Origin: Cryomorpha ignava
GTDB taxonomy: Bacteria; Bacteroidota; Bacteroidia; Flavobacteriales_D; Cryomorphaceae
Assembly (NCBI RefSeq): GCF_010686655.1
Contig: NZ_JAAGVY010000007.1
Span: 62,001 to 126,000, forward strand
Direction: 5' to 3'
Length of the DNA: 64,000 nucleotides
In this document: one piece after another, positions 3,517 to 58,080 of the stretch
Numbering within the stretch: the stretch's first letter is position 1
Layout of the letters: each line of letters starts with the position of its first letter
Made by a program: the position numbers and the translations under genes
The notes under the pieces: model-generated
What the model saw: only the letters and a program-made list of their open reading frames with translations
Told to the model about the DNA's origin: nothing
The model's database searches: none

Positions 3517-3589
3517 ATTCGTAATTAACCCATTCGTAATTCGTAATTCATTTTTCGTAATTCGTAATTCGTAATTAATCTAATTCGTA
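3517..3589. repeat. Interrupted 7-bp tandem repeat ATTCGTA
   Basis: At least six exact ATTCGTA copies and one variant occur in 73 bp between miaB and the regulator gene, in runs of two or three with perfect 7-bp phasing broken by short spacers. No promoter or terminator is recognisable in it. Confidence 0.85.
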
Positions 3590-3594
3590 ATTGA

Positions 3595-5022
3595 TTAAAC
3601 AACGTCTCCCATAAGTGTAGCCGAAGTGCAATCTGTAACTTTTACATTTACATACATGCCCGGCTTAAAGTCTCCTTTATCAAAAATTACAACAGCATTC
3701 TGGCTATTTCGTCCAAAAAGGTGTTCATCCGATTTTTTTGAAAAACCTTCAACCAATACTTCAAAGATTTGACCCACGCTTACCAAATTTCGCTTCAGCG
3801 AACTTGCTCTTTGAACGGCTACAACCTCTTCAAGCCGCGCTTGTTTAACTTCTTCAGGCACGTCATCTTCAAACTTTCTTTCGGCTAGTGTTTTTGGGCG
3901 CTCAGAATATTTGAACATATAGGCATATTCGTAATCAACTTCTTTCATAATCGATATCGTATCTTGATGATCCTGGTCAGTCTCTCCGCAAAATCCCGAA
4001 ATCGTATCGGTACTAATTGCGCATTCAGGCATAATTCTGCGGATGGCGTCAATTCGTCCCATATACCATTCGCGTGAGTATCCGCGGTTCATTCGTTTCA
4101 ATACTTCTGTGCTTCCGCTCTGCACAGGGAGGTGAATGTATTCGCAAATATTTTTGTACTTCGCCATGGTGTGAAGTACATCATCAGTCATATCTTTTGG
4201 GTGCGATGTAGAAAACCGAATACGAAGAAGAGGATTTACCAAAGCCACTTTTTCAAGCAATTGGGCAAAATTTACGGTTTCGGCATTGGGATCTGTTATT
4301 TCTCCTTTTTTGGTAATGTTCCATCTATATGAATCTACATTTTGACCTAGAAGAGTCACCTCGCGGTAGCCTTCCTGAAAAAGGTAGGATGCTTCGCGCA
4401 CAATAGATTCCGGATCGCGACTTCTTTCGCGGCCACGCGTAAAAGGCACCACACAAAAGGCACACATATTATCGCAACCGCGCATAATAGAAATAAAAGC
4501 CGTAACCCCATTGCTGTTGAGCCTTATGGGATTAATCTCTGCATAGGTTTCCTCACGCGAAAGCAATACATTTACCGCTTTTCGTCCATCGGTTATTTCT
4601 TCGATAAGTCCCGGCAGCTCGCGATAGGCATCGGGGCCTACCACCATATCTACAAGATGTTCTTCCTCGAGAAGTTGCGATTTTAAACGCTCGGCCATGC
4701 AGCCCAAAATTCCAATCAGGAAATCGGGCTGGCGCTTTTTTATTCCATTAAAATGGTTTAGCCTGTTTCGGACCCTTTGCTCTGCGTTGTCGCGAATAGA
4801 GCAGGTATTGATCAATACCAGATTAGCTTCTTCGGCATTGCTTGTGGTTTCATATCCTTCTTTTGCCAAAATGGAAGCTACAATCTCACTATCAGCAAAA
4901 TTCATCTGGCAGCCATAGCTTTCCAAATAGAGTTTCTTGCCATTTTTCTTCCATTCACCTTCTACAGTTGTAGCTTCTCCCTGACGGGTTTCGTCTAATA
5001 CTTTATTTGAACCAGTAAGCAT
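3595..5022 (-). CDS. miaB: tRNA-2-methylthio-N6-dimethylallyladenosine synthase MiaB
   Basis: MiaB is a radical-SAM enzyme that methylthiolates i6A37 in tRNAs. The N-terminal domain shows the cluster cysteines in [20 protein letters not shown] and GILGCMAER. The radical-SAM motif CDNMCAFC follows, and a C-terminal TRAM-like region ends the protein. I chose the ATG at 5022 (475 aa): the alternative start further upstream would place the gene's own promoter inside the coding region. It is the first gene of the minus-strand cluster leading to secG. Confidence 0.95.
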
Positions 5023-16761: not shown

Positions 16762-18052
16762 TGTTCAAATATATTCGCCGAAAAGCAGCGCTGCGTTAAG
16801 CTTTGTACTCGATTTTGTATTTGATGAATTTTATGGCTGCGGATACGAAATTATTTCTGAAGTCAACGACTTGGATCTCGATGGTGTAGTAATCAATTAC
16901 TCAAAAGCCCAGATTGAAAATGCGATACAGATAATCCCTAATGACTACCTCTTTGCTTCAGATTTAAAAAGATTTCCTGAAGTTGAGATCGCACAATGGA
17001 AAGAGCTTCCCGTGTTTTTTGAAACCCAAGGTTCCGTTCCTTTCGATCTTTTTGGAGCTATATTTTTTCTGCTATCACGGATAGAGGAATATACGAACCG
17101 GAAAAGAGATGCTCACAACCGGTTCAGTGCCGGGATTTCAATTTTCTCAACTGATTTTATTCAACGACCCGTTATTGATGAATGGCTGGTTGAATTAAAA
17201 AATGAATTCCCGAATGGTGCAGGTCTTACATTCGCCGAAAGGCAGTTTAAATGGATTAATACCTACGATATTGATGTTGCTTATGCATATCGTTTTCGCA
17301 CGTTTAAACATGTAATTTCAGCAGCGGGAAGAAATATTCTAAGAAGCGATTTCAATTCTTTTTTTACGCGTTTTAAAGTTCTTCTCGGAAATAAAAAAGA
17401 TCCTTATGATACATTCGCCTTTCAAAGGGAAGTTTCTGAAAAATACGCTGATGAAACGATTTACTTTTTTCTGCTGGGTGATAGAAGTAAATACGACAGA
17501 AATCTTCCGTACCACAATAATGGAATGAAATCTTTAATTCAATCGAGTGAAAATTTTGCTCGTATTGGTATTCATCCTTCGTATGTATCTGGCGAAAAGC
17601 CGGGACAGCTTTCAGTAGAGATAAATCGGTTGAGTAATATTGCTTCAAAGGAGATAATGGCCAGCAGGCAGCACTTTTTGAGAATTAGTATGCCGTCAAC
17701 GTTCCGAAACTTAATTGACAGCGGTATTTCTCAGGACTATTCAATGGGGTATGCAGATATGCCGGGATTTCGATCTGGCACGTGTACGCCCCATTATTTT
17801 TTCGATTTGGAGAGAAAATCTAAAACTACTTTAAAAATTTTTCCGCTGGTAGTAATGGAAGGTAGTTTGCGCGATTATTTAAAATTGGATCAATCGCAGG
17901 CTCAAACCATGATTAATATGCTAATGGATAGGGTGAAAGCGGTGAATGGAACTTTTATATCACTCTGGCACAACGATAGTCTAGCTGGTGAAGAGGGAAA
18001 TTACTGGAAGGATTTATATCTTGAAATGGCGAAATCTTTAAAGCGTAAGTAG
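16751..18052 (+). CDS. Polysaccharide deacetylase-like protein
   Basis: The 433-residue protein combines an N-terminal domain of about 130 residues with a NodB-like carbohydrate esterase fold. Likely metal-site motifs are NTYDIDVAYAY (about 175-185), GIHPSY (about 274-279) and LWHNDSLAG near the C-terminus. There is no signal peptide, so it would act in the cytoplasm, possibly on a lipid-linked sugar. It overlaps the ABC-F gene and its stop is followed immediately by the ATG of a glycosyltransferase, which suggests a glycan-synthesis role. The substrate is unknown. Confidence 0.78.
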   Translation: MPSNVQIYSPKSSAALSFVLDFVFDEFYGCGYEIISEVNDLDLDGVVINYSKAQIENAIQIIPNDYLFASDLKRFPEVEIAQWKELPVFFETQGSVPFDLFGAIFFLLSRIEEYTNRKRDAHNRFSAGISIFSTDFIQRPVIDEWLVELKNEFPNGAGLTFAERQFKWINTYDIDVAYAYRFRTFKHVISAAGRNILRSDFNSFFTRFKVLLGNKKDPYDTFAFQREVSEKYADETIYFFLLGDRSKYDRNLPYHNNGMKSLIQSSENFARIGIHPSYVSGEKPGQLSVEINRLSNIASKEIMASRQHFLRISMPSTFRNLIDSGISQDYSMGYADMPGFRSGTCTPHYFFDLERKSKTTLKIFPLVVMEGSLRDYLKLDQSQAQTMINMLMDRVKAVNGTFISLWHNDSLAGEEGNYWKDLYLEMAKSLKRK

Positions 18053-19192
18053 ATGAACATTCTCTTTGTTGCCGCGTGGTATCCCTCTAAGCTAAATCCT
18101 AAAAATGGAAATTTCATTGAGCAGCATGCACTTGCGGTTAAGTCGATAGGATGCAATGTAATTGTCGCTCATCTTATTTACAGCAATCGCATTCTGGTAC
18201 CGGAGATTAAAGTTGTTTTTCAAAATGAAATCATGGTTTACCAGGTTCAAATTCCACGGCTTCTCAAAAATTCTGAAAGAGTACAGGCTTTTATGTTTAA
18301 GAGATTGATTTCGAAATTGGATAATGTTGGGTTTGCTCCGGACATTATTCATGGACATGTGGTCTATCCCGCAGGCCAACTGGCACTGTTTCTGAAAAAT
18401 CATTTTGAAGTTCCGCTGGTTTACACAGAACATTGGTCGGGATATAAAGCAGTCAATTCAGATCTTTTTACTGATGACGTTGCGGCGATGGCTACAGAAG
18501 TTTTGAGCAATACTGATTTGATACTTCCGGTGTCTGAAGATCTCGGAAAAAATATGATTGATAAAGGTTTTACGGGAAACTATTCTGTTGTAAACAATAC
18601 GGTAAATACTTCTGTATTCTATCCCGAAAAACGTTATCAATCAGAAGTGTTTAGATTTCTTCATATTTCCAATTTTGAACCTAGAGCCAAAAATACAGAA
18701 GGTATTGTTAGTGCTTTTATCAAGGGAGAGTTTGAGGGCGCGACGCTCACCATAGCGGGAGATGGCGATATTGAAAAAATGCGCAAATATGCAGAATCTC
18801 TCGATGCAGATATTTCTCAAATAGAATTTATTGGAGCGCTTGAATATGAGGAAGTTGCGGATTTAATGCGCAATTCTGACTGTTTCGTATTGTTCAGTAA
18901 TTTTGAAAACTTACCCTGTGTAATTGCAGAGGCGCATTGCTGTGGATTGCCGGTACTTGCGACGGATGTAGGCGGTATTCCTGAAATGATGGATGAAACC
19001 AATGGTTTTCTGATTGAACCGAATGATGAGCCAGGGTTAATTGCGGGAATGCAGAATATGGTTGAGAAAAAAATGCACTTTAACAGAATAGGCATATCAA
19101 ATGTGGCCTCAAAGAGGTATTCTTTTGAAGCAATCGGTCGCGAATTCCTCAAACTCTATACGGCGCTTCTCCAGGGGCATCTACTTCTGTAA
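18053..19192 (+). CDS. Glycosyltransferase family 4 protein
   Basis: The enzyme transfers a sugar from a nucleotide donor in the GT-B fold. The N-terminal domain starts MNILFVAAWYPS with NGNFIEQHA; the C-terminal donor-binding domain has SNFEPRAKN, TIAGDGD (about 240), FSNFENLPCVIAEAHCCGLPVLATDVGGIPEM split around residues 283-315, which includes the GT4 E-x7-E motif. It directly abuts the deacetylase gene and is probably cotranscribed with it. Acceptor and product cannot be deduced. Confidence 0.9.
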   Translation: MNILFVAAWYPSKLNPKNGNFIEQHALAVKSIGCNVIVAHLIYSNRILVPEIKVVFQNEIMVYQVQIPRLLKNSERVQAFMFKRLISKLDNVGFAPDIIHGHVVYPAGQLALFLKNHFEVPLVYTEHWSGYKAVNSDLFTDDVAAMATEVLSNTDLILPVSEDLGKNMIDKGFTGNYSVVNNTVNTSVFYPEKRYQSEVFRFLHISNFEPRAKNTEGIVSAFIKGEFEGATLTIAGDGDIEKMRKYAESLDADISQIEFIGALEYEEVADLMRNSDCFVLFSNFENLPCVIAEAHCCGLPVLATDVGGIPEMMDETNGFLIEPNDEPGLIAGMQNMVEKKMHFNRIGISNVASKRYSFEAIGREFLKLYTALLQGHLLL

Positions 19193-19197
19193 AAATT

Positions 19198-19353
19198 ATG
19201 CTTGATGTTTTGCAAAAAGCGTTTCCGCAAATAGTGAAATCAAAAGAAGCGGCATCACGATTGATAGAGATGATACCTATCTGGAATGAGAAATTAGAGG
19301 AGAAAACTTTTAAACGTGCATTGGAGCATTCAAAGGTATCTTTGAAATTGTAG
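19198..19353 (+). CDS. Small hypothetical ORF, possibly a remnant
   Basis: An ATG-started 51-codon frame begins 5 bp after the glycosyltransferase stop. The peptide is charged and helical (MLDVLQKAFPQ to HSKVSLKL) with no recognised domain. It lies next to a decayed tRNA copy, so it may be a fragment of something once inserted there, or a small cotranscribed gene. Expression is not shown. Confidence 0.3.
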   Translation: MLDVLQKAFPQIVKSKEAASRLIEMIPIWNEKLEEKTFKRALEHSKVSLKL

Positions 19354-19541
19354 AGATCAATTTCCATAAGTAACCATGTCTGGAATAAGGAAAGTCCAAA
19401 TTCAAAAGCATCGCGTCCTAATCGCAAATTATCCGACAGCGTATGAAAAAGGTCGTGTAATCCCAATAAATATTCTTGAACTTGGAGTAAGCCAAATGTC
19501 TCTATCTCATATGGATCGCTATTGCGATCCTCTTTTTCTAG

Positions 19542-19641
19542 TAGCGGGGACAGGACTACTCCTTTCAGTCGTGAGATCGTTTCACTAAGTTCGAACCTAT
19601 GACCTCCCGTACGGGCGAGCGATCAACTGCTGCACCCCGCA
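19542..19641 (-). pseudogene. Decayed second copy of the initiator tRNA gene
   Basis: Both ends match the intact tRNA at 19721-19793 (first 16 bp, and the acceptor and D-arm end), but a 34-bp insertion (19558-19591) splits the T-loop and the anticodon arm has collapsed to the palindrome CCCGTACGGG, with no CAT anticodon. The terminator hairpin downstream of the intact gene is also duplicated (GGATCGC/GCGATCC, 19513-19530). Confidence 0.85.
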
Positions 19642-19685
19642 ATGTCAATTAAGAAATAATAATCGCAAAACTAAAATCTTAAACT

Positions 19686-19710
19686 AAAAAAGGATCGCAA
19701 TTGCGATCCT
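19686..19710 (-). terminator. Terminator of the initiator tRNA
   Basis: A 20-bp perfect palindrome AGGATCGCAATTGCGATCCT is followed on the minus strand by a T run, 10 bp beyond the tRNA 3' end. Confidence 0.8.
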
Positions 19711-19720
19711 CTTTTTCTAG

Positions 19721-19790
<70 letters not shown>

Positions 19791-19793
<3 letters not shown>

Positions 19794-19995
19794 ATGCTTT
19801 CTCGGATTGTACAAACAAGGCATGCCTTGTCTCTATCCCCCGCAATGCTTTCTCGGATTGTACAGACAAGGCATGCCTTGTCTCTATCCCCCGCAATGCT
19901 TTCTCGGATTGTACAAACAAGGCATGCCTTGTCTCTATCCCCCCGCAATACTTTCTCGGATTGTACAAACAAGGCATGCCTTGTCTCTATCCCCC
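19791..19995. repeat. Four 51-52 bp palindromic tandem repeats in the tRNA-fMet leader
   Basis: Units start at 19791, 19842, 19893 and 19945 and are nearly identical (one A/G change, one A/G change, one extra C). Each contains the 16-bp perfect palindrome ACAAGGCATGCCTTGT. Unit junctions read CCCCGCAATGC, the same as the tRNA 5' end plus flank, so the unit seems to include the first six nucleotides of the tRNA. There are no variable spacers, so it is not a CRISPR array. Confidence 0.95.
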
Positions 19996-20047
19996 GCAAT
20001 TTATTTTGATGACTTTTAATAAGTCAGACGTTTCTGATTTAGGAGTG

Positions 20048-20078
20048 CAAATATATATTTTGTTTCTTTGATCTCAAA
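20048..20078 (-). promoter_or_regulatory. Promoter of the initiator tRNA
   Basis: On the minus strand TTTG, 19 nt, TATATTTG matches the phylum consensus exactly. The start would be near 20041, so the pre-tRNA would carry all four palindromic repeats in a leader of about 250 nt. Confidence 0.75.
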
Positions 20079-20091
20079 ATTTATTTTCAAT

Positions 20092-20976
20092 ATGTCACAT
20101 AAAGCAGGATTTGTTAACCTTATAGGCCGTCCAAACGCAGGAAAATCAACATTGATGAATCAATTAGTGGGCGAGCAGATGTCTATTATTACTCCAAAAG
20201 CTCAAACTACAAGGCATCGGATTGTCGGAATTGTGAATGAGGACGACTATCAAATAGTTTATAGCGATACTCCAGGCATGCTCGAGCCAAAATATGCGCT
20301 TCAGGCAAATATGATGACTTTTGTAAAAGAAGCATTAAAAGACGCAGATATTCTGATCTTGATAATTGATATAGCTGATAAGAATATGGAGTTCTTTGGT
20401 TTTGATAAAGCACTTACCGAAATGGAGACTCCAATGTTGATAGCTCTCAATAAAGTAGATATCTCTGATCAGACAGTTGTTGAAGCGGCGGTTGAACGAC
20501 TTAAGCAAACTTTTCCAAACGCAGAGATAATGCCGGTTTCTGCATTACACGCCTTTGGAATTGACCATTTAAAAAACCGGGTACACGCTCTTTTACCCGA
20601 ATCGCCACCTTATTATGAAAAAGATGCACTTACTGACAAACCAATGCGTTTCTTTGTGAGCGAAATTATTCGGGAACGAATACTAGAAAATTATCAAAAA
20701 GAAATTCCGTATTCTGTTCAGGTTGAGATAGAAGCGTACGTAGAAGAAGAAAATATTGTACGCATTTCGGCGGTGATTTATGTGGCCAGAAAGTCACAAA
20801 AGGGAATTATTATTGGCCATCAGGGTCAAAAATTGAAAACAGTAGGCACCGAAGCCCGCTTAAAAATGGAAGAGTTTATAGGCAAAAAAGTGTTTCTTGA
20901 AATGCATGTAAAGGTAGATGAAGACTGGCGCAACAAGGATAGAAGTTTAAAGGCTTACGGATATAAAAAATCATAA
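20092..20976 (+). CDS. era: GTPase Era
   Basis: Era is a cytoplasmic GTPase that binds the 3' end of 16S rRNA and assists 30S assembly. The G domain shows GRPNAGKST (G1), DTPG (G3) and NKVD (G4); the C-terminal KH domain contains [19 protein letters not shown] chose the ATG at 20092 (294 aa); earlier start codons are weaker and precede the family start MSHKAGFVN. The stop overlaps the der start by one base (TAATG). Confidence 0.96.
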
Positions 20977-22280
20977 TGGGAAATATAGTTGCAATAGTTG
21001 GACGACCAAATGTTGGTAAATCCACACTTTTTAATCGATTGACAGAACGGCGCGATGCCATTGTAGATTCTACAAGCGGTGTTACAAGAGACCGTCATTA
21101 CGGAAAGGCTGAATGGATTGGTATTGAGTTTTCAGTGATAGACACTGGAGGCTATACTGTAAATTCGGATGATATTTTTGAAGACGAAATCAAAAAACAA
21201 GTAGAATTGGCAATTGATGAGGCCACCACAATTGTTTTTCTTCTCGATGTTACTACAGGGATTACAGATCACGATGAAGCCATAGCCGGATTTTTGCGAA
21301 AATCGGATAAACCAATTATTGTTGTGGCAAACAAAGTAGATACCAACGATCGCATATTGCCGGCCAGCGAGTTTTATAGTTTTGGGTTGGGCGATGTGTA
21401 TTGCATCTCATCATCAAATGGTGGTGGAACGGGTGACATGCTTGATGCGCTTGTAGCAACTTTCCCTACAAAAGACCCACTACCTGAAATCGATATTCCG
21501 AAAATTGCTGTTGTGGGCAAGCCAAATGTTGGGAAGTCGTCGCTAATTAATGCATTGCTGGGCGAAACACGAAATATTGTGAATGAAGAAGCAGGTACAA
21601 CGCGCGATTCTTTGTTAACCAGATACCAGGCATTTGATTTTGACTTTTTCCTAGTAGATACCGCCGGAATTAGAAAGCGCAGCAAGGTGCATGAAGATAT
21701 AGAGTATTACTCTGTTTTAAGGTCTATAAGAGCCATAGAAGAAAGTGATGTATGCCTGATGATGATCGATGCGCGGGAAGGTATGCAAAAGCAGGATTTG
21801 AATATTTTTTACACGGTAGAGAAGAACTCAAAAGGGTTGGTGATTTTGGTTAATAAATGGGATTTAATAGAGAAGGAAACCCAGACAACTAAAGAGTTTG
21901 AAGACGAGATTCGGGAGCGTATCGCACCGTTTACGAATGTGCCAATAGTATTTATTTCAGCCTTGACTAAGCAGCGGATTCACAAAGCGGTAGAAAAGGC
22001 TATTGAAGTTTACGAATCTATCAAAACGCGAATACCTACTTCGAAGCTCAATGAAGTTTTTCAACCGATTCTCGAGCGCAATCCACCACCGAGCACCAAG
22101 GGCAAATTTGTGAAAATTAAATATGTAATGCAGTTGCCGACTCACAAACCGGCCTTTGCATTTTATTGCAATTTGCCTCAATATATTAAAGATCCCTATA
22201 AGCGCTTTTTGGAAAATAAATTGCGTGAGAATTTTAATCTGGAAGGGGTACCGGTAAAGATTTTCTTTCGGAAGAAATAA
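20976..22280 (+). CDS. der: GTPase Der (EngA)
   Basis: Der is a tandem-GTPase factor for 50S ribosome assembly. Two G domains are visible, with GRPNVGKST at residues 8-16 and GKPNVGKSS near 182, each followed by DTGG/DTAG and NKVD/NKWD. A C-terminal KH-like domain completes the 434 residues. It is translationally coupled to era. Confidence 0.97.
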
Positions 22281-26780: not shown

Positions 26781-26811
26781 TTCTCCCCGCACTTCTCCCC
26801 GCACTTCTCCC
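26781..26811. repeat. 12-bp tandem repeat TTCTCCCCGCAC
   Basis: Two exact units and a partial third lie in the GC-rich spacer between the mazG-like gene and maeB (26613-26847), which otherwise holds no gene. Confidence 0.7.
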
Positions 26812-37517: not shown

Positions 37518-37669
37518 TTTCCGCGCGATAAATCGCGCGTTAAAAGGAGGGTTTCTCTGGTTTCCGCGCGATAAATCGCGCTTTAAAAGGAGGGTTTCTC
37601 TGGTTTCCGCGCGATAAATCGCGCGTTAAAAGGAAGGTTTCTCTGGTTTCCGCGCGATAAATCGCGCGG
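37518..37669. repeat. 43-bp tandem repeat with a CGCGCG palindrome
   Basis: Three full units (37518, 37561, 37604) and a fourth partial unit (37647) fill the gap between two converging genes. Each contains the palindrome CGCGCGATAAATCGCGCG, which can form an 8-bp hairpin, then TTAAAAGGAGGG. One base differs in the palindrome of unit 2. The last unit ends at the kinase stop codon. Confidence 0.95.
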
Positions 37670-58042: not shown

Positions 58043-58080
58043 TTGCCTATTGCCTATTGCCTATTGCCTATTGCCTATTG
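58043..58080. repeat. 7-bp tandem repeat TTGCCTA, five units
   Basis: Five perfect TTGCCTA units plus TTG. The last unit provides the TAG stop codon (58075-58077, minus) of the truncated ATPase. Confidence 0.95.

Follow-up and report, generated by a model that had tools for sequence, protein, structure and literature searches.

Palindromic tandem units before the initiator tRNA gene of Cryomorpha ignava: a probable relic of a tRNA-lodged GIY-YIG cassette

The initiator tRNA locus

The window analysed here is a stretch of 64,000 nucleotides from Cryomorpha ignava (contig NZ_JAAGVY010000007.1, positions 62,001 to 126,000), whose genome comprises 5.0 Mb in 149 contigs; the gene content, read by eye, fits a Bacteroidota bacterium. 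On its minus strand lies an intact gene for initiator tRNA-fMet, the only full-length match to this tRNA that we found in the 5.0-Mb genome. Four head-to-tail units of 51, 52, 51, and 51 nt (20000-19796, minus strand) are placed between the promoter (20078-20048) and the gene itself (19793-19720), and a rearranged copy of the same tRNA follows. The features of the locus, in window coordinates, are these:

20092..20976, plus strand: era, divergent neighbour (same neighbour in relatives)
20048..20078, minus strand: promoter of tRNA-fMet, TTTG-N19-TATATTTG (conserved before tRNA-fMet in other genera)
20001..20047, minus strand: native leader, from promoter to array (sequence)
19950..20000, minus strand: unit 1, 51 nt, 3' end AAAGT (repeat analysis)
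19898..19949, minus strand: unit 2, 52 nt, one additional G (repeat analysis)
19847..19897, minus strand: unit 3, 51 nt, right arm with C for T (repeat analysis)
19796..19846, minus strand: unit 4, 51 nt, abutting the real tRNA-fMet gene (repeat analysis)
19720..19793, minus strand: intact initiator tRNA-fMet(CAT) (ARAGORN and Rfam)
19691..19710, minus strand: terminator-like hairpin and T run after the tRNA (sequence; the hairpin listing marks it as terminator-like on the plus strand only)
19541..19643, minus strand: rearranged tRNA-fMet copy (sequence comparison)
19606..19615, minus strand: palindrome CCCGTACGGG replacing the anticodon stem-loop of the downstream copy (same 18-mer in the cassette of the relative G005)
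19557..19590, minus strand: 34-nt insert in the T loop of the downstream copy (related insert in the host tRNA-Pro cassette)
19513..19530, minus strand: second copy of the terminator hairpin, with no T run on this strand (sequence)

Since era is the same neighbour in relatives, the identity of the locus is fixed across them. The promoter is of a form that we take to be the Bacteroidota -33/-7 type, and TTTG-N17-21-TAnnTTTG occurs six times on the two strands of the 64 kb, one occurrence being the promoter of the array. The sequence-only reading had placed a promoter ahead of four palindromic units of 51 bp. The promoter was borne out, and its conservation extends to this locus in other genera; the tandem units before the initiator tRNA are real, with lengths of 51/52 nt rather than a uniform 51. 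With a conserved promoter ahead of the units, the array should be part of the precursor, and the units are very probably cotranscribed with tRNA-fMet.

Every unit opens with the 9 nt ATTGCGGGG, which also opens the real gene at 19795, continues with an imperfect palindrome enclosing the exact 16-nt palindrome ACAAGGCATGCCTTGT, and ends in a short tail, directly followed by the next unit. The tRNA part per unit amounts to only about 7 nt, and the tail, CCGAGAAAGC, has no match to the present native leader. TRF scored the array at 405, and the other three units are 93-98% identical to the reference copy. An assembly artefact is an unlikely source of the array, since units 1, 2, and 3 each have a private variant.

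The downstream tRNA copy and its hairpin copy (19643-19513) had been absent from the sequence-only reading. Both ARAGORN and Rfam call the intact gene only and leave the rearranged copy (19643-19541) uncalled. The region of its T-loop insert is 80% alike, over about 58 nt, to a 3' copy of tRNA-Pro in the host genome, and a variant of the insert was seen by eye in G007, a genome outside our 395-genome sample of the class. We rejected the insert as a widespread element, with a match in 1 of the 395 genomes, the host itself. Beyond the downstream hairpin copy, at about 19495-19505, stands GATAGAGACA, which has 10 letters in common with the left palindrome arm of the array; this may be chance.

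The array palindrome and the leader RNA

The palindrome had been proposed to be REP-like, with a genome count as the check. Its core is present at nine exact places in the 5.0-Mb genome, four in the array and five elsewhere, and a control with the reversed pattern gave no genome match. The palindrome is therefore not unique to the array, and the REP-like description gained ground: two of the five nonarray places adjoin transposase fragments. At contig C41, two palindrome copies adjoin a putative C-terminal fragment of a REP-associated tyrosine transposase, which matches NF047646 with an E value of 4e-4, below the NCBIfam cut-off; a Pfam search with the 33-residue fragment gave no match. The ends of the array palindrome are GATAGAGAC..GTTTGTAC and have no GTAG tag. 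GTAG stands at both ends, GTAGAGAC..GTCTCTAC, of one copy on contig C19 and one on C41, and a perfect 26-mer TAGAGAC..GTCTCTA is found at two places in the genome. None of the 11 genomic Y1_Tnp loci carries the core or both arms, and a lone half-arm TAGAGAC lies at one of them (L037).

We compared these properties with those of REP sequences, GTAG-tagged palindromes, and REP-associated tyrosine transposases as given in the available part of PMC3733652. As there, the palindrome is short, extragenic, and dispersed, within the 20-40 bp range of a REP; it stands in tandem in the array, two other genomic copies have GTAG ends, and putative transposase fragments adjoin it at C41 (PMC3733652). Unlike the REP systems in that part of the source, it has nine exact cores (five outside the array) rather than a high genome copy number, the array is untagged, and no core stands beside the 11 Y1_Tnp matches (PMC3733652). 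On the low copy number and the lack of a GTAG end we rejected classical REP membership; the array palindrome is REP-like rather than an established REP. Near the C41 end (L161, 3956-4322), ACAAGGCATGCCTTGT is repeated along with a putative C-terminal fragment of a REP-associated transposase, into the contig end. On C19 (72000-72700, L006), tandem half-palindromes of the type TAGAGACAAGGCATGCGCAG precede a full palindrome.

The array RNA is predicted to fold strongly: its energy is -98.7, compared with an average of -53.2 for shuffled sequences (z, -11.3; none of 200 shuffles as low). In equilibrium folding of 19691-20041, palindromes of different units pair with each other, and the 3' acceptor strand of the tRNA, CCCCGC, pairs with the first GCGGGG copy with a probability of 0.74 and with its own partner with one of 0.01, compared with 0.98 for its own pairing in a short-leader control. 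When the pairing span was limited to 80 or 120 nt, acceptor pairing was normal (0.95 and 0.98), and the energies of the full and the 120-nt-limited foldings differ by only about 2.4 kcal/mol. The model thus hints at a possible competition of an upstream copy for the acceptor strand. The units had also been read as decoys for RNase P, which is unsupported: an acceptor strand of 6-9 nt, without its partner and T stem, is not known to be an RNase P substrate. We dropped the decoy reading and kept only the possible pairing competition for the tRNA 3' acceptor strand.

The locus in relatives and GIY-YIG genes at tRNA genes

We surveyed tRNA-fMet in 60 genomes of the order, of which 59 gave a match; the host (G000) is the sole genome of its genus compared, and eight belong to its family. 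The genomes compared are drafts, and some are metagenome assemblies according to their titles. The search for upstream and downstream copies used a lax E value of 1, at which many short matches are chance, and G049 is masked with Ns at this flank. Clear upstream copies were present in 5 of 59 genomes from two families (G000, G005, G006, G037, and G051). The family member G001 is array-free, with the promoter, about 14 nt, and then tRNA-fMet; also array-free are G003 and G004, with leaders of 67 and 78 nt. The stretches of G001 and G002 are identical to those of Bacteroidia bacterium isolate 7_bin.31 (L084) and Flavobacteriales bacterium isolate MAG28 (L085). Of the 29 loci L092-L120, 24 have TAnnTTTG in the 260 nt ahead of tRNA-fMet; it is missing from that stretch in G000, G037, and G051, which have arrays, in G005, where a contig edge cuts the locus, and in G021. 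The 24 motif-bearing loci have leaders of 9-97 nt, except for G019 with 188 nt, in which a degenerate tRNA copy is doubtful. The leader of G006, outside this set, has 224 nt.

Where arrays occur, unit number and unit sequence differ between relatives. G037 and G051, of one genus in another family, have tandem palindrome units before tRNA-fMet: 2.4 repeats of 85 bp with TCCGCCGCGGCGGA in the former and 5.5 repeats of 86 bp, with the D loop replaced by TCCCGAAGTTTCGGGA, in the latter. G006 has one partial 5' copy and no clear palindrome. In G005 the units measure 85 bp and hold the CCCGTACGGG mini-arm, as does the downstream copy of the window. Their number is at least four: contig C108 shows four, the fourth running into the end of the contig, and C103 shows a single one (L024 and L157). 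The C103 unit has the same left context as the first C108 unit; it may be that very unit or belong to another strain, and the difference possibly reflects strain variation in unit number or an assembly break. Behind tRNA-fMet, displaced 3' parts of the tRNA with a more or less perfect palindrome before them were seen by eye in G023, G037, G041, G051, G054, and G056.

Behind tRNA-fMet of G005 comes a small GIY-YIG gene, and directly at its stop codon lies a tRNA-fMet copy with the CCCGTACGGG mini-arm. The same 18-nt mini-arm is thus present both in the tandem upstream units and in the 3' copy directly behind the gene. Flank copies in the host were judged real at tRNA-fMet, -Asn, -Pro, -Cys, and -Glu (30 loci of 34 tRNA matches). 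Its tRNA-Pro is followed by a GIY-YIG gene and then by a tRNA-Pro 3' copy carrying a relative of the T-loop insert of the window; its tRNA-Asn is preceded by a palindrome unit, truncated where the contig ends, and followed by a GIY-YIG gene. At the host tRNA-Cys and tRNA-Glu (L181 and L190), rearranged 3' copies lie downstream with a common insert near TTGAACACC.TTGAAAATAAACACTTGTGAAAA, and no GIY-YIG motif was found there.

How general is the association of GIY-YIG genes with tRNA genes? Among 24 small GIY-YIG loci of the host's family (f1), an intact tRNA lies within 500 nt in 11, tRNA fragments only in 2 (one being L075, with tRNA-Asn fragments), and neither in 11 (L054-L056, L058, L061-L065, L072, and L073); this count left out three small matches and the long frames (UvrC-like and others, among them L082 and L083). 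Two of the tRNA-free genes, L072 and L058, stand among tandem arrays of other palindromes or repeats, so this nuclease group may be associated with repeat arrays at places other than tRNA genes too. Of eight named loci found by protein alone, seven (L084-L089 and L091; two of them from family members) show a tRNA on the strand of the gene and 34-106 nt ahead of it, and the eighth, L090, starts at a contig edge. The tRNA background is low, with nine ARAGORN calls in six loci of 10-20 kb (L084-L089), one of which is a palindrome-bearing copy. PF01541 scored over its cut-off in all four tRNA-linked proteins tried, which came from genomes other than that of the window. We rejected phage and plasmid origins of the nuclease: tblastn with one protein gave no match in phages, and with another single protein no match in plasmids.

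A class-wide profile scan found GIY-YIG matches in 64 of 119 genomes. The profile was made from ten GIY-YIG proteins of f1, all tRNA-adjacent except one with tRNA fragments only, and favours this clade; tRNA adjacency in other families is a separate observation from this bias. A same-strand tRNA lies within 450 nt in 26 of the 30 best loci and in none of L198, L208, L221, and L222. The flank analysis covered 48 loci, to which the f1 loci without tRNA, L075, and L090 do not belong. Nineteen came from f1, the named matches, or the fMet loci, were partly selected for tRNAs, and were excluded. In 22 of the 29 nonseed loci that remain (L194-L222, the best locus per genome, not selected for tRNAs, host seed excluded), a tRNA on the same strand precedes the GIY-YIG gene by at most 300 nt; the other 7 lack an upstream tRNA. 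A 3' copy accompanies 16 of these 22 and a 5' copy 7, and all seven loci with a 5' copy also have a 3' copy. In an isotype control over all 38 tRNA-linked loci, the tRNA-selected ones included, the 3' flank was matched by the locus's own tRNA in 28 and by tRNAs of other isotypes in 2-7 (five draws); for the 5' flank the figures were 13 and 2-6 of 38 (five draws).

The flanks share one architecture: a variable number of units made of a tRNA 5' part, a palindrome, and a leader; the intact tRNA; a terminator; the GIY-YIG gene; a palindrome with a tRNA 3' part; and a terminator. It is clearest at the tRNA-Lys loci L086 and L087. First come two partial tRNA copies, consisting of the 5' part and having TCCCG..CGGGA where the anticodon stem-loop would be, then the intact tRNA, a terminator-like hairpin, and the GIY-YIG gene; a tRNA 3' part with a like palindrome stands directly at the stop codon, followed by a further hairpin. 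ARAGORN calls the palindrome-bearing copy of L086 a tRNA-Lys, so the valid alignment to the parent is that of L087. Copies of tRNA-Lys, -Pro, -Asn, -Ala, and -fMet have another sequence at the position of the anticodon arm, and those of tRNA-Ala, -Arg, and -fMet have a replaced or split D loop; 5' copies outside the window mostly keep about 35-61 nt of the tRNA. The gene side can be multiplied as well. In G166, from another family, ten GIY-YIG copies follow tRNA-fMet in tandem, one about every 457 bp, and tRNA-Asn is followed by five copies in 379-bp steps, the last incomplete, and has at least three 5' units; G153 has three copies behind tRNA-Leu in 345-bp steps. The ten-copy tandem (L223, contig C9, 905000-911500) adjoins an era-like gene.

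Origin of the array

Measured against this architecture, the window has 5' units before an intact tRNA, with a tRNA part of about 7 nt, and a 3' tRNA part with palindrome and hairpin copy, the latter without a T run; a GIY-YIG gene between the tRNA and the 3' part is absent, and no GIY-YIG match was found in 17501-21000. The locus is thus a relic or relative of the cassettes and not a full member. As both palindrome-bearing flanks are present and the nuclease gene is absent, we think it probable that a homing cassette once lodged in this tRNA gene has lost its GIY-YIG gene and that the array is what remains of its 5' half. In the mechanism that we propose, the nuclease would cut an unoccupied tRNA gene near the anticodon arm, and the break would be repaired from the occupied allele by way of the tRNA parts that border the cassette, 5' and 3'. 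An intact tRNA would thus be copied in along with the cassette, and the essential gene would survive. Recombination between direct tRNA repeats could afterwards gain or lose units, on the 5' side as in the window (four) or on the GIY-YIG side as in G166 (ten), and the palindromes that replace tRNA arms would block cutting or recombination of the fragments as tRNA. The long leader would be a by-product, with a possible effect on the tRNA.

Several results argue for the relic. The array-free G001 has the same promoter, a short leader, and the tRNA; G005 has its mini-arm in the upstream units and in the copy behind the GIY-YIG gene at the same tRNA; and the T-loop insert of the window is related to those of the host tRNA-Pro cassette and of G007. 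Support comes as well from the palindrome unit and GIY-YIG gene at the host tRNA-Asn, from the tRNA linkage in 22 of 29 loci of the class scan together with the isotype control, from the 5' palindrome units in G037 and G051 and the GIY-YIG tandems of G166, and, within the available part of the source, from the tandem amplification of a tRNA locus driven by SegB (PMC13096335). Against it count the missing GIY-YIG match at the locus, the short tRNA part of the units compared with that elsewhere, a palindrome of a kind different from the usual TCCCG..CGGGA, and a tail unlike the native leader. The 5' copies of G006, G037, and G051, with no GIY-YIG match in the DNA fetched there, also count against it, as do the GIY-YIG loci free of tRNA (11 of 24 in f1; 7 of 29 in the class without an upstream tRNA).

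The short tRNA part and the different palindrome leave room for a plain tandem duplication, in which a REP-like palindrome would have inserted at the 5' end of the tRNA and been multiplied by replication slippage or recombination without any GIY-YIG enzyme. The REP-type palindrome at five other places, two of them beside transposase fragments, would fit this, as would the short unit with the 9-bp repeat ATTGCGGGG at both ends and the want of a GIY-YIG match at the locus. Such a duplication, however, leaves unexplained the downstream copy with its mini-arm, T-loop insert, and hairpin copy, features that recur in GIY-YIG cassettes, and also the 5' units at tRNA genes of other families; we consider it rather unlikely. 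Less likely still is a regulatory leader, in which palindromes and acceptor-strand copies would control the maturation or amount of tRNA-fMet, for example, by pairing between units or by competition for the 3' acceptor. The promoter upstream of the array and the predicted pairing of CCCCGC with the first GCGGGG copy point that way, but the alternative structures lie close in energy, the acceptor pairs normally under either span limit, and the folding ignores tertiary contacts and cotranscriptional folding. The array is, moreover, missing in G001, and the unit sequence is not conserved between relatives. Given the downstream copy and the GIY-YIG/tRNA cassette of relatives, a product of recombination would explain the array better than a regulator. 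The array could also multiply tRNA promoters, each unit being one, and TACAAT in each unit gives weak sigma-70-like matches; yet the Bacteroidota -7 motif TAnnTTTG is absent from both strands of the array, and the conserved promoter motif lies just upstream of the array in the window as in G005, G037, and G051. For want of this motif in the units we rejected the promoter reading as highly improbable.

The closest experimental precedent for the mechanism of the proposed relic is SegB. According to the available part of PMC13096335, SegB is a free-standing GIY-YIG homing endonuclease of T-even phages, tRNAs are enriched near segB in phages, and a tRNA-Tyr segment undergoes tandem amplification with SegB, for which the authors propose that the 5' region of the tRNA recombines with the 3' region of segB. 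The cassettes resemble it, as far as that part goes, in a free-standing GIY-YIG gene beside tRNA genes and in tandem amplification (PMC13096335). Unlike SegB, they lie in contigs of bacterial genomes, and their tRNA is flanked by palindrome-bearing 5' and 3' parts. The four tRNA-linked proteins tried have the GIY-YIG catalytic domain (PF01541); cutting and mobility of the cassettes are inferred.

A different comparison is with integrative elements that use tRNA genes as attachment sites, leaving the tRNA intact and a partial 3' copy beyond the insert. The cassettes do likewise; unlike such elements, they carry, in the stretches examined, a small GIY-YIG gene instead of an integrase, are flanked by tRNA fragments at either end, and have palindromes in place of the anticodon or D arm and 5' units before the gene. 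In the open-access literature, to which our search extended, we found no description of palindrome-bearing, tRNA-linked GIY-YIG cassettes in bacterial genomes. On balance we lean towards an apparently undescribed, class-wide family of tRNA-homing GIY-YIG cassettes in Bacteroidia, whose small nuclease genes would move together with an intact tRNA flanked by palindrome-bearing tRNA halves, lodged at many isotypes including the initiator and prone to tandem amplification, of which the window would hold a relic with a lengthened leader. If so, selfish nuclease cassettes, each supplying a functional copy of its own target, would lodge repeatedly in essential tRNA genes of a major bacterial class, and phage SegB would have its counterpart in chromosomes. 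This would account for odd tRNA fragments and for palindrome arrays next to tRNA genes, and the cassettes would offer a direct test of how a nuclease targets an indispensable gene without killing the host.

The window has one further tandem array of palindromes, at 37518-37668, with 3.5 units of 43 bp that contain CGCGCGATAAATCGCGCG; it lies between the ends of convergent genes resembling a TonB-dependent receptor and a histidine kinase. TRF also reported short simple tandem repeats at 3532-3597 (7 bp), 26781-26811 (12 bp), and 58043-58080 (7 bp).
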